NCBI RefSeq assembly: GCF_900109575.1
Contig: NZ_FOAF01000004.1
Location: 62,001 to 126,000 of the forward strand
DNA: 64,000 nt
Source: Olivibacter domesticus
Lineage (GTDB): Bacteria > Bacteroidota > Bacteroidia > Sphingobacteriales > Sphingobacteriaceae
Reading direction: 5' to 3'
How positions within the stretch are numbered: position 1 is the first letter of the stretch; each line of letters starts with the position of its first letter. The notes beneath the pieces were generated by a model that was not told the origin of the DNA, ran no database searches, and saw nothing but the letters and a program-made list of their open reading frames with translations. The position numbers and the translations under genes were made by a program. Positions 42,758 to 57,719 of the stretch are shown in pieces.

Positions 42758-44206
42758 TTAATTCGATTTCCACCACTCGTTTTGTGTTAACAATTCATTT
42801 TGCGGCAATAGATTTCGCATATCCAAGGGCCAGTAGTATCCCTTCTTAGCCATTCGGTCATTTGAATATTCTCCAGAGAATAGGCGCTGCAATTGCTCCA
42901 TACGAATCATATCAAACATTGCCTGCCCCTCTCCCAAGAGCTCCCTGCGACGCTCATCAAAGATTTCATTGAAAAGGTTTTCTCCTATGCCATTATAAAG
43001 TCCCAGCCCGGCACGCGCTCTGATCAAGTTTAAATCATCTTGCGCACCAGTTATATTTCCATTTTTATACCGTGCTTCAGCTCTCAATAGGTAAATATCT
43101 GCCAAACGAATCAGCACCAAATTATTACTCACTACATAGTTTGACGTATTGTTTGGATCATAATAATTTACTCCATCATATTTTGTCAAGATATACTTAT
43201 TATTCCCTCCAGACGATAAGGTCATAATGGTATCAACACGTTTGTCATCTTCTTCAAACGTATTTTTCATTGCTTCTCCAACTGGCCAGGCGTCGTTGAT
43301 CGCTTTATTTTTTATATAGGGATCTGTCAAGAAAATATTAAAAAAACCAGCTGTAGCTTCATTGCTTACCGCGTCAAACAGCATATTCAACTCAAAAATG
43401 CTTTCTTTAGAATTCCCTTTCCAGATTTTTTTATAATCGGCTAAATTTTCGAGACTGTATCCTTTGTCTATCACCTCGTTGCAGTATCTCTCTGCATTCA
43501 CATAATCATGTCTCCAGGCATATATTTCGGCCAGTAGGGCAAGTGCTGCACCTTGATTAGCGACAATCTTCTCTCCAGCGTTATCCAATAAACCAATTGC
43601 TGCCTCTAAATCTGTTATACAATAGGTTAATACTTCTTCTTCTGAACTGCGAGGGATAGGTTGTATAGCATCGGGATCTTTGAATGATTCCTTCGTCATC
43701 ACTACATCTCCCCAAACACGCTGCATATAAAAATAAGTATAGGCTCTTAGAAATCTAGCCTCTCCTTCTAATCGTTTCTTTTGAATTTCCCCATCAGCAA
43801 ATTTGCTTACATCAATCTTTGGGGTATTCTCAATGATAAGATGGCATTGGTTAATTACGCTATAAAATCGCGTCCAATTTTTCAAGGAGGCCTCTAAATA
43901 GGGAACATAGCTAAACTTAAAACCGCCGCTTTGTACAATGGCAGTATAATTCCAGAAACCGCTAACATCAAAATTATCAGCCGCGACGTCACCAAAAATG
44001 AAATAGCTTCTATCGCTCAAAAAGCTACCTCTTAATAGACCGTATGCCCCTGACATGGCCTTCTGTACATTAGCGCCGCTTACCCAGAAAACTTCGTCGT
44101 AGGTCGCATTTTGAGGTTCTAAATCGATGTACTTACTACAACCGGGCAACAAAAAAACGAAGGCTGTGAGTAAGGCTTTAAACGTTAAACTTTTATATCT
44201 TTTCAT
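42758..44206 (-). CDS. SusD/RagB-family outer-membrane lipoprotein
   Basis: Start chosen at ATG 44206 (MKRYKSLTFKALLTAF), because it directly precedes the signal peptide and lipobox LLPGC; 482 aa. SusD N-terminal domain (GEARFLRAYTYFYMQRVWGD) and RagB C-terminal (LADIYLLRAEARYKNGN, LNLIRARAGL, FDERRRELLGEGQAMFDMIR) are normal. It lies 76 bp after the SusC gene and is followed by FAS1 and DUF5007-like genes. Confidence 0.95.
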   Translation of the reverse strand: MKRYKSLTFKALLTAFVFLLPGCSKYIDLEPQNATYDEVFWVSGANVQKAMSGAYGLLRGSFLSDRSYFIFGDVAADNFDVSGFWNYTAIVQSGGFKFSYVPYLEASLKNWTRFYSVINQCHLIIENTPKIDVSKFADGEIQKKRLEGEARFLRAYTYFYMQRVWGDVVMTKESFKDPDAIQPIPRSSEEEVLTYCITDLEAAIGLLDNAGEKIVANQGAALALLAEIYAWRHDYVNAERYCNEVIDKGYSLENLADYKKIWKGNSKESIFELNMLFDAVSNEATAGFFNIFLTDPYIKNKAINDAWPVGEAMKNTFEEDDKRVDTIMTLSSGGNNKYILTKYDGVNYYDPNNTSNYVVSNNLVLIRLADIYLLRAEARYKNGNITGAQDDLNLIRARAGLGLYNGIGENLFNEIFDERRRELLGEGQAMFDMIRMEQLQRLFSGEYSNDRMAKKGYYWPLDMRNLLPQNELLTQNEWWKSN

Positions 44207-44282
44207 CTTAACAATTTTAAATAACAATGAACCATTGTACTTCATATGTGCAGCGGTTCATTTTATTGCCATAAACATTTCT

Positions 44283-47200
44283 TTATAAGGTTAATTCGAC
44301 TCCAAATGTAAATTTCCGCGGCAGTGGGTAGGCTCCTCCATCATATTCGCCTTGTGGGCTAATCGCTTCTGCATCTGGAATATTTGCGGATTGAAACGTA
44401 TAAATATTATCGAACATAGCATATACCCTCGCTCCTTTTATACCTATTCTATCAACTAATTTATCCGCTAGGCGATATCCTATTGTAACTGTTTTGATCT
44501 TAAAAAAATCACCCTTTTCATTCCATAAAGTGCTAAAGGGAAAAAACTGATAGAAGTTAGGACCATAAGGACTGATAGATGGAAAGTTAGCTTCGTAATT
44601 GGGATCCTCTGCCTTCGATGGTGTCCAATAGTTGATTTCGCTCATGTCTGGCAAGCGTTGATTACCAAAATTATTAATGCTCCCATAATTCCATATATTG
44701 GAAAACTGATTAGACATCAGTGTATTAATAATATCGCGTTTGAAGGTAAAGGTTCCCAAAACTCCTAGGGAGAAATTTTTCCATGTAAATTCGTTGTACA
44801 AACCACCTACAAATTTTGGATTTGGATCACCCGTTTGTACTAAATCGCCATCAGCGTTCCCCCTATCTTCGTCACTCCATACATCCCAATCGTTATTGAC
44901 ATCCAACCAATTTGGAAAACCGGGTTGTACAGGGTAATTACCTTTAAAATAGGTCAGTCGCTGACCAGTGATAGGGTTCACTGGAATATCTCCCTGCTGG
45001 TTATAAACTCCTTGATAGATCATTTGCGCCCATCCATAAATAGGCCCTCCTACTGAAAAAAGAAGTTGCTGATTATATCCTCTGGAATCCATATAAAAGG
45101 TGCGGTCATTATTGGGCAAAGACGCCAGCCTGTTCTTATTGTAACTTAAATTAAGGTTGGTTGTCCATTGTAGTTTGCTATCAGCACCTAAATTTCGGGA
45201 AGTTATGGTAAGATCAATCCCTTCATTGAGAATATTCATAGGTACGTTATAGGAGATCTTCGTATAGCCTGTGTAAAACGGAACAGCAAATGCGAATATC
45301 GGACTAATGGTTTCCTTTCTATAGGCATCGGCCGTAATATTTAATCTGCTTTTAAAGAGATAAAGATCTAAACCAAGATTGGTTTGCTTGGACTTATTCC
45401 AGGTAAGATTAGGTTGTGTGAGTGAGTTTCTATTAGGGTCATAGTAGTAAATAGGTGTTGACATGCCGCCTCCACCATAGGTTGCAGTAGCGATATCCCA
45501 AACATTATAAGGTGCATAGAATTTTCCTGGTAAGGTTCCTGAATGCCCATAACTTGCTCTAAATTTCAACAGCTCCAGCCAATCTATGTCTTTCAAAAAA
45601 TACTCATCAGATGCTACCCAAGCAGCTGAGAATGCGGGGAAATAACCCCACTTCGTGTTTCGACCGAAGCGAGAAGAAGCATCTGCACGCCATGATGCGT
45701 TGATGATATATTTTCCTTTATAATCATAGGAAAACTGCCCTAAATAAGATAATAAACCGGCTTCCTCTAAATCAGACTTTCCAGTCAAATCGCGTTGAGC
45801 AATACCTTGCACTACCTTGATATCGTCTGTAGGTAAATTTAACCCTTGTAGTTGCGTCTTTTTTCGATTTTTATATTCGAAAGACTGCATAGCGGTAAGG
45901 TTTAGGTTATGTGTTTCCTGTATACTGTGTGTCCAATTCAAGATATTGGCTAAATTATAAGTATAGTCTTCAAACCGGTTCGCTGAAGCAAAAGAGATTC
46001 CATTCGGTGCAATTTCCGTGGGCATAAATCGATCTCTCCTATCTATATTTGCCTGCCCAGATGCTTGTAAAGAATATCTTAACCCCTTTATAAGGTCAAC
46101 ATCCGTTTGAGAAAATATACTGATGGCATCCGTTTGGTTATTATCACGTAATTTATCATATTGTCCATAATAGTATTCATAATCAACATCGTTCAATTTA
46201 ACGAAAGAAGAAGGCATCGACCCTTTGTCAACGGGTAAAGGGTCACCTTCATTTGCACTTCTCCCTAAACCTCTTTTACGATCCATTCTCGAGGCAGAGA
46301 TAATCAAACTGGTTTTAGCAATCGGAAAAAGCCGAAAATCAAAATTTCCGCGTAATGAATAGCGTTTAAAACCGGTATTCCGCATAATTCCGTCTTCATT
46401 ATAGTGGTTTAAAGACAATCTATAGTTTAGCACATCATTCCCGGCGGATATATTGACATCATAATTACTTATACGACCTGTTGAATAGAAAAGGTCTTGC
46501 CAATCTGTCGCATTATTATAACTAGGGTTTAAACTGTCTGTCAAGATTTGTGGAATAATTCCTAATTGCGCGTGCGATCCATATTCCTTCAATATGTCCA
46601 TTTTTTGACGTCTTTCCTCTGCACCTGCATATGTACGCTGGAGCTCTGGACGCTGCGAAGCACCTGTATAATACGATAAACGAACTGTTGGCCTACCGGT
46701 TGATCCTTGTTTTGTTTTTATAATGATAACGCCGTTCGCTCCTCTCGATCCCCAAACGGCTGTAGCAGCGGCATCTTTCTGTACTACAATGCTTTCAATA
46801 TCGTTCACATTTATACCGGCTATATAGTTTGTACCCGTCGCCCCACCTGATAAATCTGTACTGGAAATAGGCATTCCATCGATTACAAATAAGGGGGAAC
46901 TCATTGTATTCGCTAGATCTACTTCATCATTTAATCCACCCGAAATAGTGGTATTTCCACGTACTGTAAATGTATTTCGTACACCCGGTTCACCCGTGAA
47001 ATTTTGAATATTAATCCCCGACACACGTCCCTGCAGCAGTGTTTCAAAACTTGGAGCAGGAAGGTTTTCTATCTGTTTTCCCGAAACTACCTGGACAGCA
47101 CTCGTGGTTTTCCGTAACGATTGTTGTTGGTATCCAATCACAACCACCTCATCCAAGCCTTGTCCCTCGTCTAACTGCAATGATAAAATCAATGCACCCC

Positions 47201-47780
47201 CCTTAACAGCGAGTGTTTTTGTTTTATAACCTACGAAAGTGAATCGAAGGCTATCACCAATAGAAGCTTGGATTTCATAAGCGCCACGGCTATCTGTTAC
47301 AGCCGTGATATTCTTTCCAGCAACCCTCACCGAAACACCTGCGAAAGGTTGATTTCGCTCATCTTTCACAACCCCATGTATCTTATTCTGTATAAAAGAT
47401 TCGATTGTTACCGACTTTTTTTTAACGATCACCGTTCCATCGTAAATCTGATAGGATAAGGGCTGATGCTTAAACGCTTTTTGTAAAACTGCCTCGAGTG
47501 ATGCATCTTTTAGGTCTAAGGAGATTTGTTGACTATGATCCAAAAGTCCTTCTTCAAACATAAAACGATAGCTCGTTTGCTTTTTTATTTCTTTAAAAAG
47601 CTCCTCCAGAGAGATACTTTTACTGGAGAGTGTTACCTTCTGGGCCAAGGCTCGTGCGTGCACCCCCAAGCCAAAAGCTAACATAAGCGCAAATGTTAAC
47701 TTCATGATTATAAGAATTTTTCTGTGGGTTGATTTATAACCATACCACTTCCGGTATTGGTCAATACGGAATTTATCCAT
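44283..47780 (-). CDS. SusC/RagA-family TonB-dependent receptor with STN signalling domain
   Basis: Protein of 1165 aa. An N-terminal cytoplasmic-type extension and signal (MKLTFALMLAFGLGVHARA from residue 26) are followed by an STN domain (about 50-125, EELFKEIKKQTSYRFMFEEG), a CarboxypepD_reg-like domain (about 133-210), DEVVVIGYQQQSLRKTTSAV box and plug, and a beta-barrel ending RKFTFGVELTL. The STN domain is what contacts a FecR anti-sigma factor, and a FecR gene and ECF sigma gene lie directly upstream. So this transporter is probably also the sensor for its own operon. A predicted antisense RNA starts opposite its ATG. Confidence 0.95.
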   Translation of the reverse strand: MDKFRIDQYRKWYGYKSTHRKILIIMKLTFALMLAFGLGVHARALAQKVTLSSKSISLEELFKEIKKQTSYRFMFEEGLLDHSQQISLDLKDASLEAVLQKAFKHQPLSYQIYDGTVIVKKKSVTIESFIQNKIHGVVKDERNQPFAGVSVRVAGKNITAVTDSRGAYEIQASIGDSLRFTFVGYKTKTLAVKGGALILSLQLDEGQGLDEVVVIGYQQQSLRKTTSAVQVVSGKQIENLPAPSFETLLQGRVSGINIQNFTGEPGVRNTFTVRGNTTISGGLNDEVDLANTMSSPLFVIDGMPISSTDLSGGATGTNYIAGINVNDIESIVVQKDAAATAVWGSRGANGVIIIKTKQGSTGRPTVRLSYYTGASQRPELQRTYAGAEERRQKMDILKEYGSHAQLGIIPQILTDSLNPSYNNATDWQDLFYSTGRISNYDVNISAGNDVLNYRLSLNHYNEDGIMRNTGFKRYSLRGNFDFRLFPIAKTSLIISASRMDRKRGLGRSANEGDPLPVDKGSMPSSFVKLNDVDYEYYYGQYDKLRDNNQTDAISIFSQTDVDLIKGLRYSLQASGQANIDRRDRFMPTEIAPNGISFASANRFEDYTYNLANILNWTHSIQETHNLNLTAMQSFEYKNRKKTQLQGLNLPTDDIKVVQGIAQRDLTGKSDLEEAGLLSYLGQFSYDYKGKYIINASWRADASSRFGRNTKWGYFPAFSAAWVASDEYFLKDIDWLELLKFRASYGHSGTLPGKFYAPYNVWDIATATYGGGGMSTPIYYYDPNRNSLTQPNLTWNKSKQTNLGLDLYLFKSRLNITADAYRKETISPIFAFAVPFYTGYTKISYNVPMNILNEGIDLTITSRNLGADSKLQWTTNLNLSYNKNRLASLPNNDRTFYMDSRGYNQQLLFSVGGPIYGWAQMIYQGVYNQQGDIPVNPITGQRLTYFKGNYPVQPGFPNWLDVNNDWDVWSDEDRGNADGDLVQTGDPNPKFVGGLYNEFTWKNFSLGVLGTFTFKRDIINTLMSNQFSNIWNYGSINNFGNQRLPDMSEINYWTPSKAEDPNYEANFPSISPYGPNFYQFFPFSTLWNEKGDFFKIKTVTIGYRLADKLVDRIGIKGARVYAMFDNIYTFQSANIPDAEAISPQGEYDGGAYPLPRKFTFGVELTL

Positions 47781-47792
47781 AAATTTGATTGA

Positions 47793-47876
47793 TTAAGGTT
47801 ATCGAATAATTATTTACATCATTATATGTATACCTTGTCACTTTCCGGAGGTATGCCAGTACTTCCGGATTTTTTA
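47793..47876 (+). ncRNA. Predicted cis-antisense sRNA opposite the 5' end of susC (44283-47780)
   Basis: On the plus strand a Bacteroidota-type promoter is present: TTG at 47757-47759, a 20-bp spacer, and TAAATTTG (perfect TAnnTTTG) at 47780-47787. About 50 bp after the inferred start comes an intrinsic terminator with a T-run. The RNA of about 84 nt would lie between the anti-sigma and susC genes, antisense to the susC leader. This position and size match the cis-encoded PUL sRNAs (DonS type) described in Bacteroides. Start and end are inferred. Confidence 0.5.
47844..47875 (+). terminator. Plus-strand intrinsic terminator between fecR and susC
   Basis: TCCGGAGGTA and TACTTCCGGA (9 of 10 pairs, one G-T) form a stem with a 6-nt loop followed by TTTTTT on the plus strand. 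There is no plus-strand gene here, and the minus strand has no T-tract after the stem, so it fits an antisense transcript better than the fecR mRNA. Confidence 0.75.
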
Positions 47877-47925
47877 TACATATGTTGGTTCAGTCAATTT
47901 AGTTCATACACACTCCTTTCTTATT

Positions 47926-49080
47926 TTAGATAACAGTTAGAATTTTTTCGTCAATAGAAAATTGATGGCCGCTTAAATCTGTCAACATTTGGCACACACC
48001 GCCTAGTGTTACGCTACGTTTGATTCCACCACGGTACCGCTCTTTACTTATTTCCGTATTATATTTAACATCGACATTATACCAACGCGCTACTTCCTCC
48101 AATATTTGATATAGATTTTTCCCATCAAAATAGAAATAACCTTCTTTCCAAGAGAGCGCCTCCTCTATGTCTGCCTTGTGGACTGATAACCTATCGGCAT
48201 AAGATGACACCGCATATCCGGGTGTAATGATCCTCTGATCTTGTTGATTGCTTACCTTTACTTTTCCTTCGGTAAGAATTGTTTTTGTTTGGTCGTTAGT
48301 ATAAGTATTGATATTGAATGCGGTTCCGAGCGCTTCTACATGAATTTGATTGGTATATACAATAAAGGGGGAATTAGTCTTTGGAACCACTTCAAAATAG
48401 GCTTCCCCAGCTAACAACTTAACCACACGTTCTTTTTCCGTGAAGTCTGCAGGAAATTCCAAGATAGATGCTGCATTTAGCCACACGTTAGAGCCATCAG
48501 GTAGTTTTAATTGATAGTTTCCACCCTTCGGTACACTAATTTGATTAAGGAGATCAGTGGATTTTTGCCGGTCTTGATCAATTGATTTACTAACCGACAG
48601 TGCACTGTCTTCTTTAAACTCCAGCGAATCCCCCTCCAAAACTATTTTTTTCCCGCTGGGTAACGTTAGTATTGCTTTATTAACTGCAGGCAATACATCA
48701 TTCTGATAGCCATATTGATGATCGACGATTATGCCGTTTTCACGCTCATTAGGCAACTCCCACCATGTTATTCCACACAAAAGCAGAAACACTGCAGCGA
48801 TACTCAACCATTTCCACTTAAACCAATTATGTTGCTTTCGTTTAGTGCCTGGTTGTCTATATTTTTGAAGAACAAGATTCCAATCTTCTTCTTTGTCAAT
48901 ATTTTCAAAGAGAATAAGGTCATCAGCAAGGATGGAGGTATCGGCATATCGTTCTAATAACTGACGTAATTGTTCATCTTGTTCTGCACGCTTTAATAAA
49001 TCGGTTTCTTCTTCGGCGTTTAAGGCTCCTCGCAGGTATTGGGAAATGAGTTTTGCTAACTCAAATTGTTCCTTGTCCAT
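47926..49080 (-). CDS. FecR-family anti-sigma factor
   Basis: Start chosen at ATG 49080 (MDKEQFELAKLISQYLRG), 384 aa. The N-terminal cytoplasmic anti-sigma part (1-80) is followed by a membrane segment (about 88-105, KWLSIAAVFLLLCGITWWEL) and the periplasmic FecR domain (about 180-290: LKLPDGSNVWLNAASILEFP; GEAYFEVVPKTNSPFIVYT), with a C-terminal STN-like DUF4974 region (YFYFDGKNLYQILEEVARWY). It would hold the sigma factor until SusC signals. It lies 106 bp downstream of the sigma gene. Confidence 0.93.
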   Translation of the reverse strand: MDKEQFELAKLISQYLRGALNAEEETDLLKRAEQDEQLRQLLERYADTSILADDLILFENIDKEEDWNLVLQKYRQPGTKRKQHNWFKWKWLSIAAVFLLLCGITWWELPNERENGIIVDHQYGYQNDVLPAVNKAILTLPSGKKIVLEGDSLEFKEDSALSVSKSIDQDRQKSTDLLNQISVPKGGNYQLKLPDGSNVWLNAASILEFPADFTEKERVVKLLAGEAYFEVVPKTNSPFIVYTNQIHVEALGTAFNINTYTNDQTKTILTEGKVKVSNQQDQRIITPGYAVSSYADRLSVHKADIEEALSWKEGYFYFDGKNLYQILEEVARWYNVDVKYNTEISKERYRGGIKRSVTLGGVCQMLTDLSGHQFSIDEKILTVI

Positions 49081-49186
49081 AAAAGATTTATCTTCTTTTA
49101 TCCTAAGGAACATGAATCTTAAAAAGGGGTGAAAAGATTTTTAATATTTTCGGAAAAAGAATACAATCAACTGATAGTCAACAAAA

Positions 49187-49717
49187 TTATTTTAATAAAA
49201 AATAAATTAAGAGAGATAGCGCTTGTGGTGATAGACGATTTCTCAATAACATCAAGGCACGTTGCTTTTGGGTTTTTACGGTGTTGATGCTTACATTCAG
49301 GGCCTCTGCAATCTCGAAATTTTTCATCCCCTCAAGATACCCCATTTTACAAATCTGACTGCAGCCTGAAGGAAGGGATTCGAGTGCTGCATGTAACTCG
49401 CCCATCACCTCCGCATGCATCATGGCCTGAAGCACTTTTGCATCCTCTACAAAATCTTGTTCATGGATACGACTGGCGATTTGTTTATGCCTAATTCTGT
49501 TGAGCGCTGCATGCTTAACAGTACTATATAAATAACTCTTAATGGCACTTGGGTCATCCACACTTTTCAACGTGCCTTCCATTAAAACAACAAAAGCATC
49601 CTGTGCTAAATCACGCGCAGTTTCCTGGCAATTTACTAAACGAAACGCAAAGGTGCACAATCTAGTGTAATATAGATCAAACCATCCTTTTACTTCGTCA
49701 GGTGATAACATATTCAT
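49187..49717 (-). CDS. ECF-type RNA polymerase sigma factor
   Basis: Protein of 176 aa. Sigma-70 region 2 (about 12-80, YYTRLCTFAFRLVNCQETARDLAQDAFVVL) and region 4 (about 110-165, LPSGCSQICKMGYLEGMKNFEIAEALNVSINTVKTQKQRA, given as ranges) are both present. It is the first gene of the sigma/fecR/susC/susD chain. The duplicated palindromic element sits about 120-175 bp upstream, so production of the sigma factor itself may be under a LacI-type repressor. That would add a layer above the usual sensor loop. Confidence 0.93.
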   Translation of the reverse strand: MNMLSPDEVKGWFDLYYTRLCTFAFRLVNCQETARDLAQDAFVVLMEGTLKSVDDPSAIKSYLYSTVKHAALNRIRHKQIASRIHEQDFVEDAKVLQAMMHAEVMGELHAALESLPSGCSQICKMGYLEGMKNFEIAEALNVSINTVKTQKQRALMLLRNRLSPQALSLLIYFLLK

Positions 49718-56000: not shown

Positions 56001-56603
56001 CTCTACCAAACTAAAATCAACCGAAACTGATTTACCTTCTTCCACTAAGATCCCCGCTCGTTGCTCGCTCTCATAGGAAATATAGCTGACCACTAAGGAG
56101 TAAGTTCCTGGCTTTAATGACACGGAAAAATGACCGTCAGTATCTGTGCTTACGGTACGGTTAAGTTCTACAACTTTAACGGTTGAACCCGCTAAAGGGC
56201 GACCTTCCCTGTCTTTCACGATGCCGGTTATATGGCCAGCTTGTTGTTTTTTATACAGCAAAACTGTATTGGCACCCTTTCCTGTATAATCAACAGGCAC
56301 CTTTTCAAATAACCTTGACAATACCTCGTCAAGAGAAACATCTTCAAGCTTAAGCGATTGGATACGTCTATTTTCGAGCTTCAGTTCCCCGGCGTCAAAA
56401 ATAAATTCCAGCTGTTCTTCTTCCTGCAATAGTTGAAGGGCCTGGTATAGATTAACATCCGATAAAGATACATCTACAGTTTTGTTCAAGACTTGACCTT
56501 CTGATGGCATCGCTTGCAATAATTGCGAAAGTGCAATCAATACAGTATAAATTAAAATAGTTGTACGCATGACTTTTCGTATGAACAATGCGGTTTTCTT
56601 CAT
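53085..56603 (-). CDS. SusC/RagA-family TonB-dependent receptor with STN signalling domain
   Basis: Start chosen at ATG 56603 (MKKTALFIRKVMRTTILIYT), 1172 aa; an upstream ATG adds 23 residues of non-signal type. Signal to about residue 35, STN domain (about 42-115, LYQALQLLQEEEQLEFIFDA), CarboxypepD_reg-like domain (about 125-200), LNEVVVVGYGTQKKANLTGA box/plug, and a barrel ending KTTTVGLNVSF. With the ECF sigma and FecR genes upstream this is a second self-sensing SusC system. The -7 box of a predicted antisense RNA overlaps its start codon. Confidence 0.95.
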   Translation of the reverse strand: MKKTALFIRKVMRTTILIYTVLIALSQLLQAMPSEGQVLNKTVDVSLSDVNLYQALQLLQEEEQLEFIFDAGELKLENRRIQSLKLEDVSLDEVLSRLFEKVPVDYTGKGANTVLLYKKQQAGHITGIVKDREGRPLAGSTVKVVELNRTVSTDTDGHFSVSLKPGTYSLVVSYISYESEQRAGILVEEGKSVSVDFSLVETQGSLNEVVVVGYGTQKKANLTGAVSQISASTLENRPSPNLTRMLQGTLPNLNIKMVDGSPTRGATYNVRGTTSIGAEGSALVLIDGVEGDPNKINPNDIESVTVLKDASSAAVYGSRAAFGVVLITTKNPIKGQVKVNFSSNYSLNQRTVEPKLITNGYEWAKNFNDAFNAWYDYKSNPISVNNIFPFSLDYLERLKEHSENPALPEVVYNESLGRYEYFGNNDWNNFIYKDNMPATEQALSVSGGSEKIDYYLSGRYYYQDGIFKYNSDKFNRYNLRGKGNIKINKWLELQNNTELSIYDYHYPMFADGDGNIWRQFEHQGYPMAVLYNPDGSYTHSAVYTGIASFMDGNNGSDQSNTYFRNTAGLVAKPLDGLTLKTDFTYAKTIGKDTRANNYMYYSNAPGSTSRFGRSLLRQFNEDTRYLAGNATATYAQTFAAKHDFSALVGFNIENSRFENLDVQRDGILDPTKPDFNLMDGTNYNIVGGGHEWAYLGLFYRLNYAYAGKYLLELNGRYDGSSKFPENQRYGFFPSVSAGWVLSNESFMKDAKSWLSNLKVRASYGSLGNGNVDPYRYMEQMSVSKASVILQGLQPNYTQLPAVIPDGLTWERSTTFDVGLDLALFKDKLNVTFDWYNRKTSDMFTVGQPLPNVFGAAVPSGNYADLSTKGWELTLAYNGSSTLFSKPFTWGISGSLWDSKSHIERFNNPNNLLSSTYYVGHEIGEIWGYETLGFFTSDEDIANHADQSFLTNSNNKEWLPGDLKFADLNGDGVINQGDNTVDNPGDRRIIGNDAPRYQFGFTLSGRWNGFGLSAFFQGIGKRDWYFAPEAGLFWGPYNRPYGYQPVKLMEDHWTEEDPDAYFPRYRGYTALGTDRSLGAPQTRYLQDVSYLRLKSLTVDYNLPESWIQKLKVSRINLFVTAQNLFTLSGLFKHTDNFDPEVMEKPIGELTNGSGQGYAYPMLKTTTVGLNVSF

Positions 56604-56615
56604 AAGTTTGTATAT

Positions 56616-56728
56616 ACTTAGTAGATTATTGGATAAATGAATTACTGAGTGGCTATGTCTCAAGGGTCTCAAGCTTCGACATAGTCCGATACAGGCAAGT
56701 ACCCATTGGGTATTTGCTTGTTCTTTTT
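56616..56728 (+). ncRNA. Predicted cis-antisense sRNA opposite the 5' end of susC (53085-56603)
   Basis: TAAGTTTG at 56603-56610 is a perfect TAnnTTTG -7 box on the plus strand; the -33 region is weak. The transcript of about 113 nt would fold into a hairpin (GGCTATGTC/GACATAGTC, 56651-56684) and end in an intrinsic terminator overlapping the fecR stop codon. The position, between anti-sigma gene and susC and antisense to the susC leader, is the same as that of the RNA predicted at 47793-47876. Confidence 0.45.
56695..56728 (+). terminator. Plus-strand intrinsic terminator between fecR and susC
   Basis: GCAAGTACCC and GGGTATTTGC (one G-T pair) form a 10-bp stem with a 3-nt loop, followed by TTGTTCTTTTT on the plus strand. 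It overlaps the end of the fecR gene on the other strand. Confidence 0.7.
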
Positions 56729-57719
56729 ATGGGTAAATAACTAGATCATCTCCTTCCCTCCTATATTGATTTTGATGAATTGAACAAATTAACTCCATTG
56801 TTTTTTCTAGGCTTCTATCCGTACGGATCATTAAATTGTATTGGTAATTGAGTGTTCTGACATCGCGACTTTTTAGGGTAATGCCATACAGGTTATGCAT
56901 CGCCAATGCTAGCTCTTCAAAGCTTGCCCTTTCTAGATACAACCGCCCTTTAATCCAAGTATTTAAATATCGTATATTGAACGTCGCATAATCAACCGCT
57001 CTATCTTTCTTACGGTAATGTATTCGCTCATTTTTGCTTAGTTCTCGAAGCGGACCACGGTCATCAGACACACGCACCCTCCCATCTTGTACAGCGACTG
57101 AAATATTGGGTAGTTGCGAGTAGGCACTTACATTAAAAGAGGTACCCAATACCTGAACTTGAAGCGTTTTCGTATGTACCACAAAAGGCCTTTTCTCGTC
57201 TTTTGCCACTTCAAAAAAAGCCTCACCCTCATCAAGGAAAATCTGTCGATCTAGTTTAGAAAATTTTTCGGGAATGCGTACACTGGAATGAGCGTTGACA
57301 TACATTGTGGATCCGTCGGGAAGCGTCAGTTTTTTCACCTGCCGTGTTCCAGTATGAATCTCTCTCATAGCTACAACAGCCTCAGACTTCACACTCTTCG
57401 CCGCATTTGGTGACTTCATTATAAACCACCAAGCTATCATGGTTCCTACCACACCAAAAGCCAATACCGCAGCTGCCATTTGCCACTTTATAAAAGACCT
57501 TGTTTTCCTTTTTAAGGGATCTTCCCATAAAGAAGTCCGGATGCGCTCGTCTAGCTCTTGTTCAATTCGTTGTTTGGCAGTTTCATCGTCTAAACTTGGT
57601 ACCCCTTGTTTATCATCTCCAAAAGAATCATACCATCTTTGCATGAAAGCTTGATCTTCTGTACTTAATTTATTTTCATGAAAGGCCTCTATCAGGGCCT
57701 TGAACTGTTTTTTATCCAT
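56727..57719 (-). CDS. FecR-family anti-sigma factor
   Basis: Protein of 330 aa. N-terminal cytoplasmic segment (1-75, MDKKQFKALIEAFHENKLST), transmembrane helix (about 80-98, MAAAVLAFGVVGTMIAWWFI), FecR domain (about 115-225: KLTLPDGSTMYVNAHSSVRI; GEAFFEVAKDEKRPFVVHTK) and a C-terminal DUF4974 part (GRLYLERASFEELALAMHNL). It works with the sigma factor encoded 184 bp upstream and with the STN domain of the downstream SusC. Confidence 0.93.
   Translation of the reverse strand: MDKKQFKALIEAFHENKLSTEDQAFMQRWYDSFGDDKQGVPSLDDETAKQRIEQELDERIRTSLWEDPLKRKTRSFIKWQMAAAVLAFGVVGTMIAWWFIMKSPNAAKSVKSEAVVAMREIHTGTRQVKKLTLPDGSTMYVNAHSSVRIPEKFSKLDRQIFLDEGEAFFEVAKDEKRPFVVHTKTLQVQVLGTSFNVSAYSQLPNISVAVQDGRVRVSDDRGPLRELSKNERIHYRKKDRAVDYATFNIRYLNTWIKGRLYLERASFEELALAMHNLYGITLKSRDVRTLNYQYNLMIRTDRSLEKTMELICSIHQNQYRREGDDLVIYP

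Follow-up and report, generated by a model that had tools for sequence, protein, structure and literature searches.

Work on DonS and on other cis-antisense RNAs associated with PULs in Bacteroides reportedly goes back to a founding paper by Cao et al. from 2016. DonS is described as one of a family of antisense RNAs of 78-128 nt that lie opposite susC and lower its expression, and that are seen as discrete transcripts on northern blots; the housekeeping promoter motif of these bacteria is given as TTTG or TAnnTTTG (PMC7366714). In B. thetaiotaomicron there are 32 PUL-associated antisense RNAs, whose correlation with the PUL is negative or positive (PMC10994844), and the mechanism of DonS is described as unknown (PMC11697453). 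The transcriptome of Flavobacterium psychrophilum contains 287 transcribed regions antisense to genes, and the passages of the paper's text that deal with PUL antisense RNAs name them for B. fragilis alone (PMC9723704). In the part of the literature surveyed, including passages of PMC12565237, such RNAs are not reported outside Bacteroides, and the F. psychrophilum tables might contain susC cases. In another system of B. thetaiotaomicron, the control of Roc, silencing is mediated by a short mRNA leader of a PUL gene, for which the authors' hypothesis is an sRNA or an RNA-binding protein (PMC10294740). This system shares with the locus described here the short leader of a PUL gene, but the word "antisense" is absent from the main text of that paper.

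The stretch of Olivibacter domesticus DNA analysed here, 64,000 nucleotides in length and referred to as the window, contains a gap between fecR and susC (copy 1) that quite probably encodes, on the plus strand, a cis-antisense RNA of the DonS kind of about 85 nt, predicted from its sequence, which would limit susC. As in the published descriptions of DonS-type RNAs, the predicted element lies opposite the 5' end of a susC homologue and recurs in many copies in the genome, and copy 1 has the same antisense position between an anti-sigma gene and susC. Its predicted length falls within the 78-128 nt of the known family, and over 91 gaps with the same elements the predicted length has a median of 93 nt and a 5-95% range of 68-125 nt if the RNA starts 7 nt past the box. 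The TAnnTTTG motif of the housekeeping promoter is present, although the -33 part is weak, and an intrinsic terminator that would give a discrete RNA can be read in the sequence only. The difference from DonS lies in the host family, Sphingobacteriaceae, and the likeness is one of layout, known here from sequence alone.

Layout of the two fecR-susC gaps

According to the ORF list and Pfam, the genes on the minus strand follow the order ECF sigma factor, fecR, susC with an STN domain, and susD. The features of copy 1 are as follows.

49187-49717, minus strand: ECF sigma factor (Pfam Sigma70_r2 and r4_2)
47926-49113, minus strand: fecR, anti-sigma factor with FecR and FecR_C domains (Pfam PF04773 and PF16344)
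44283-47780, minus strand: susC, TonB-dependent receptor with STN, carboxypeptidase-regulatory and plug domains (Pfam), the predicted antisense target
42758-44245, minus strand: susD (Pfam)
47757-47759, plus strand: TTG, -33-like element of the predicted antisense promoter, within susC codons (sequence)
47780-47787, plus strand: TAAATTTG, -7 box of the predicted antisense promoter, across the susC start codon (sequence)
47792-47876, plus strand: predicted cis-antisense RNA of about 85 nt, its start placed from a box at -12 to -5
47844-47875, plus strand: predicted intrinsic terminator, hairpin TCCGGAGGTATGCCAGTACTTCCGGA at 47844-47869 followed by TTTTTT at 47870-47875 (sequence)

The gap between fecR and susC is 145 nt long. 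The spacer between the TTG and TAAATTTG measures 20 bp, and the first T of the box is the T of CAT, which corresponds to the A of the susC ATG at 47780. The stem begins 56 nt and the T run ends 88 nt from the end of the -7 box. The position of the box at -12 to -5 relative to the RNA start is that reported for F. psychrophilum (PMC9723704). The first-pass annotation had named a TTG, a 20-bp spacer and a box sharing its first T with the susC ATG, followed by a hairpin with a six-T tail, and all of these are read directly on the plus strand. Its statement that no protein gene uses this strand agrees with the lack of any listed ORF of at least 100 aa on the plus strand at the gap, and the sigma/anti-sigma control that it ascribed to susC agrees with the Pfam matches to an ECF sigma factor, FecR and an STN-type SusC. 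The predicted RNA (47792-47876) folds with -22.7 kcal/mol and a z-score of -3.73 against shuffles (-4.35 in another folding run of the predicted plus-strand RNA), compared with -15.9 kcal/mol for the opposite strand. A search of 47000-48600 against Rfam gave zero matches at E up to 5. The downstream genes, which were looked at with Pfam for a PUL directed at host or mucosal glycans, encode SusD, a fasciclin-domain protein and a sulfatase. Within susC, the minus-strand segment 46515-46544 matches the sigma-70 consensus TTGACA-18-TATAAT in 12 of 12 positions, which is probably meaningless in this phylum.

A second fecR-susC pair of the window, with the susC ATG at 56603, carries copy 2.

56603-56610, plus strand: -7 box TAAGTTTG on the susC start codon (sequence)
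56615-56727, plus strand: predicted antisense RNA of about 113 nt, with a terminator hairpin at 56691-56721 (sequence, fold)
56727-57719, minus strand: fecR of copy 2, its stop codon 5 nt from the hairpin (Pfam)

The layout of copy 2 (56603-56727) matches that of copy 1 apart from the TTG, which is absent at spacers 18-21. Its predicted RNA folds with -44.7 kcal/mol (z -6.96) and the opposite strand with -25.8 kcal/mol.

Recurrence of box and terminator

The O. domesticus genome (6.78 Mb) has 50 FecR matches and at least 150 plug-domain matches; one genome of the family (G022) has 80 FecR. Every region around the 50 FecR matches was examined, and 48 had a start codon within 420 nt, L039 and L048 being left out since their next start lies more than 420 nt away. 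A strong terminator, defined as a hairpin with a T tail of -14 kcal/mol or better, was present on the antisense strand in 33 of the 48 gaps, as opposed to 2/48 on the sense strand, 1/48 in antisense orientation at fecR starts, 0/48 inside susC and 1/240 in shuffled gaps. Among 20 SusC genes without a nearby FecR match, hand-chosen from the at least 150 plug-domain matches, an antisense terminator was found in none at -12 kcal/mol and in one at -10 kcal/mol. The perfect TAnnTTTG box (six of six bases, three offsets counted, first ATG only) lay on the start codon of susC in 23/48 cases, compared with 0/50 fecR starts, 1/20 fecR-less susC and 2/39 ORF starts of the window, both of the latter being the two fecR-susC genes. 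With five of six bases, again on the first ATG only, the counts were 31/48 for fecR-susC, 4/50 for fecR, 3/20 for fecR-less susC and 4/39 for the window. The recurring SusC N-terminus MYK arises because the box contains the entire ATG in some genes. Box and terminator occur together in 32/48 gaps, so that the antisense element is not an isolated case; 13/48 have no terminator. In L011 a perfect -7 box stands at an alternative start and a terminator was not found, possibly a decayed or differently ended copy.

Terminator-like sites alone are not rare (19 in 13.8 kb vs 10.3 expected), and TAnnTTTG occurs 73 times on both strands of the window. A strong terminator follows TAnnTTTG five times, twice in the fecR-susC gaps and three times elsewhere, vs 0, 1, 0 and 0 times in four shuffled windows. 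A single site is therefore insufficient, and the significance comes from position together with recurrence; on these grounds the promoter-terminator layout is beyond chance. The -33 element of the antisense promoter is weak: TTG at a spacer of 19 or 20 was present in 20/91 gaps with box and terminator vs 1/40 gaps with neither, and a -33 logo, tried as a promoter signature, gave just a weak TTG signal. The word AACC, 26-9 nt before the susC start, was considered as a promoter or RNA 5'-end motif (47/83 antisense-positive and 10/24 antisense-negative susC, 6/20 fecR-less susC, 5/50 fecR) and was dropped as not specific, because it also precedes fecR-less and antisense-negative susC. The paralogues are alike mainly in box and hairpin, and the stretch between the two shows little conserved sequence.

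FecR served to select loci of relatives at the levels of genus, family, order and class, the "order" draws all belonging to the same family. L162 is counted under order and L180, a class draw, under the family to which its genome belongs; six re-fetched loci of the own genome and L113, L115 and L163, which have no downstream ORF, are outside these counts. For the relatives, as for the 147-gap, FecR-similarity and presumed Bacteroides counts below, the start taken was the ATG with the best box among those up to 140 nt from the first, a choice that favours boxes. Both elements were present in 13/23 gaps of the genus, 18/26 of the family, 21/23 of the order and 4/24 of the class, as well as in 3/3 named loci with fecR (Terrimonas, a Chitinophagaceae MAG and Flavivirga), 10 of the 13 named loci having been dropped for lack of FecR. 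The first-pass annotation had proposed a check on whether related fecR-susC gaps keep the -7 box and the terminator; it was run, and the prediction held: across 147 gaps, including those of the own genome, 91 have both elements, 5 the terminator alone, 11 the box alone and 40 neither. Co-occurrence has a p-value of about 2e-20 with relatedness ignored, and since the compared genomes are related and the genes paralogous, the p-values given here do not refer to independent events. Further loci selected by similarity to the FecR of the window had both elements in 24/29 cases. The closest of them, L190, whose SusC is 69% identical, retains the box, leader words and hairpin, and copy 1 is conserved in L190-L193. 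The closest named SusC relative among the matches listed is from Olivibacter, consistent with the Sphingobacteriaceae genome that had been surmised from the DNA alone.

The layout is not universal, because the FecR match search found no FecR in 43 of 60 class-level genomes and only 4/24 class gaps have both elements. In all but one of the 91 antisense-positive loci the protein encoded downstream bears STN according to a permissive home-made profile, the exception being the class-level locus L171; as 46/56 antisense-negative loci also bear STN, the link between the antisense RNA and the signalling receptor is loose. For ten SusC relatives from named genomes (L051-L055 and L057-L061; 56-69% identity), FecR is absent from the DNA examined, and their match to the query begins only at residue 84-134; the STN extension and ECF/FecR control may be gained or lost jointly.

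Two further sets come from a genus that we take to be Bacteroides, since a 16S probe matched 7/396 genomes, six of them in the family of that genus. Both elements were found in 15/23 and 5/16 gaps of the two sets, the latter representing one genome, and in 19/38 distinct gaps, after L223, L230, L231 and L241 of the 27 loci of genus g57 and four of the 20 loci of genome G554, none of them with a usable downstream start, as well as L246-L247, had been left out. The -7 box likewise lies on the susC start codon, and the terminator stem begins about 50-80 nt further. The anatomy of the DonS type is thus present in presumed Bacteroides itself, and as the layout is the same, the O. domesticus copy is classed, by its sequence layout, with the DonS kind in another family.

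Strand of the hairpin, proposed action and rivals

The strand that carries the structure was addressed by a strand-neutral stem search, which used Watson-Crick pairs, permitted at most two mispairs and required no T run. It gave 121 distinct stems in 146 box-bearing gaps, whose mispairs, read on the antisense strand, comprise 97 G.T, 5 A.C and 15 others. A T run (at least five in eight) lies downstream of 104/121 stems and an A run upstream of one. In a subset of 99 gaps the stem was found in 82, with 66 G.T vs 2 A.C; the same search gave 10 stems in 495 shuffles and 6 in 99 regions inside susC. Because G.T pairs hold solely in antisense RNA, the selection would act on the RNA of the antisense strand, and this pattern, judged by the mispairs, shows that the hairpin is kept as an RNA structure of that strand. 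In eight related hairpins of equal length, which were hand-picked for the covariation count, 6/10 pairs changed on both sides and 98.8% are paired. The interpretation as a DonS-type antisense RNA, given initially for copy 1, is supported on this sequence level by the conserved layout, the excess of G.T over A.C, and the same layout in presumed Bacteroides.

In the proposed mechanism, the housekeeping sigma factor would start the antisense RNA from the promoter with its -7 box in the susC start codon, and the intrinsic terminator would end it before fecR. The complementarity of this RNA to the susC leader would extend from the hairpin to a point about 12 nt short of the start codon, and pairing with the leader may block ribosome loading and/or mark the susC mRNA for decay. 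As long as FecR retains the ECF sigma factor, leaky susC-susD expression would thereby stay low. In FecR-type systems SusC itself is the receptor that frees the sigma factor, and for this reason control of the leak would be valuable. Substrate bound by the STN-type SusC would free sigma, and strong sense transcription over the antisense promoter would then turn the antisense RNA off; with this promoter off, the loop would lock on, so that the RNA may set a threshold on an auto-amplifying circuit. If this holds, a regulatory principle of gut Bacteroides extends to environmental Bacteroidota, and the 32 probable copies in one genome could represent a large regulator class there. The sequence rule of a start-codon box, a terminator stem about 40-95 nt on and a G.T-tolerant stem would allow such RNAs to be proposed from genomes alone.

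The main rival holds that antisense transcription itself matters and the RNA is incidental: a polymerase passing over the susC start would hinder sense polymerase or ribosomes, and the terminator would guard fecR from read-through. The overlap of the -7 box with the start codon, the best place for such interference, and the little conserved stretch between box and hairpin speak for it, and the kept stem, which requires a terminator only, is compatible with it; the known DonS-type RNAs, on the other hand, are discrete on northern blots (PMC7366714), and we regard this alternative as possible but distinctly the less likely one. Inverted repeats can also act as DNA operators, and the sense strand folds as well (-11.1 vs -17.0 kcal/mol), so that the hairpin might be an operator or a sense-strand RNA element such as an attenuator or the 3' end of the fecR mRNA. 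However, G.T and A.C mispairs, counted on the antisense strand, should be equally frequent in a DNA palindrome, and in a sense RNA the 97 and 5 observed should be reversed; of the 121 stems, 104 vs one have their T run on the antisense side. These counts make such an element very improbable.

It is somewhat less improbable, though still a poor candidate, that CAAAnnTATG before susC is an element of sense translation or an ECF promoter that resembles TAnnTTTG when the opposite strand is read. In most genes with a box the motif reaches the start codon, but it was found at only 1/20 fecR-less susC and 0/50 fecR starts, occurs at several offsets to the ATG and tracks the antisense terminator. Chance matches to promoter and terminator in AT-rich DNA, for which the 73 boxes of the window and the three box-terminator pairs outside the fecR-susC gaps could be cited, are refuted for the class by the genome, shuffle and stem controls and for copy 1 by the conservation in L190-L193, and their probability is close to negligible.

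A sense-strand mini-ORF beside the hairpin

Two further features of copy 1 lie on the sense strand between fecR and the hairpin.

47899-47907, minus strand: mini-ORF ATG AAC TAA, ATGAACTAA (47907-47899), its stop 29 nt before the hairpin (sequence)
47913-47919, minus strand: AAAGGAG, a Shine-Dalgarno-like word upstream of the mini-ORF (sequence)

In 39 of 134 distinct antisense-positive loci the fecR stop lies 0-29 nt from the hairpin. The other 95 loci have long gaps, and 82 of them contain, on the sense strand upstream of the hairpin, an ATG with a stop no more than nine codons further on, vs 36.9 +- 4.3 in shuffles bounded in the same way (36.6 in another run). In this region an in-frame stop follows 128/151 ATGs vs 142/302 in the other two frames (p 8e-10), and neither the stretch from hairpin to box nor antisense-negative gaps nor the DNA preceding fecR-less susC showed this frame effect. 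The own genome alone has the mini-ORF in 19/21 loci vs 7.6 in shuffles (frame p 0.013) and presumed Bacteroides in 18/18 vs 9.0 (frame p 0.0006). The ATG density of 20.2 per kb is not above all controls, four control regions ranging from 14.8 to 23.2. More tiny ORFs of at most three codons than in shuffles were likewise counted in antisense-negative gaps (14 vs 8.9 +- 2.1) and within 80 nt upstream of fecR-less susC (11 vs 4.6 +- 1.7). The excess of mini-ORFs over shuffles is thus partly general, and only the bias towards in-frame stops is specific. In short gaps, such as the 5 nt of copy 2, the fecR stop takes the place of the mini-ORF before the hairpin.

The position of the mini-ORF points to translated sense RNA that extends as far as the border of the antisense target. 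The mini-ORF next to the antisense RNA is a new observation; in the literature surveyed, part of it in the form of passages, no such rule is reported, and for B. thetaiotaomicron short ORFs in long 5' leaders are described in general (PMC7366714). If functional, the mini-ORF rule bears on how DonS-type RNAs work.

We tentatively propose, as an idea that may well prove wrong, a composite switch from presumed Bacteroides to Sphingobacteriaceae, in which an antisense promoter fused to the start codon is combined with a sense mini-ORF whose translation would decide on the action of the antisense RNA. The mini-ORF would have one to about ten codons, sometimes being a start-stop and sometimes preceded by a Shine-Dalgarno-like sequence. 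The recurring trait would be a translation stop shortly before the target of the antisense RNA, a separate mini-ORF being usually absent where fecR stops there. A ribosome ending before the target may compete with the 3' end of the antisense RNA; alternatively, the terminating ribosome may link sense transcription across the leader to translation. In the CopA/CopT-tap-repA system of plasmid R1, an antisense RNA with a terminator hairpin acts against an mRNA leader in which a short ORF precedes the regulated gene. All three components, antisense RNA, terminator hairpin and short leader ORF, have a counterpart here, which is a resemblance only, and unlike in that system the mini-ORF of O. domesticus ends before the antisense target.

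To our knowledge, Bacteroidota generally do not use Shine-Dalgarno sites. AAAGGAG or AAGGAGG after the fecR stop is retained in the relatives L190-L193. AGGAG or GGAGG precedes the mini-ORFs of copy 1, L006, L028, L034, L040, L190, L191, L195 and L206, and in L192 and L193 it follows the fecR stop with no close mini-ORF. Overall, a Shine-Dalgarno-like word near an ATG is a minority trait (13/78 vs 2.1 in shuffles), and AGGAG is found no more than 60 nt from the fecR stop in 10/91 gaps vs 3.75, antisense-negative gaps being raised as well (3/25 vs 0.8).
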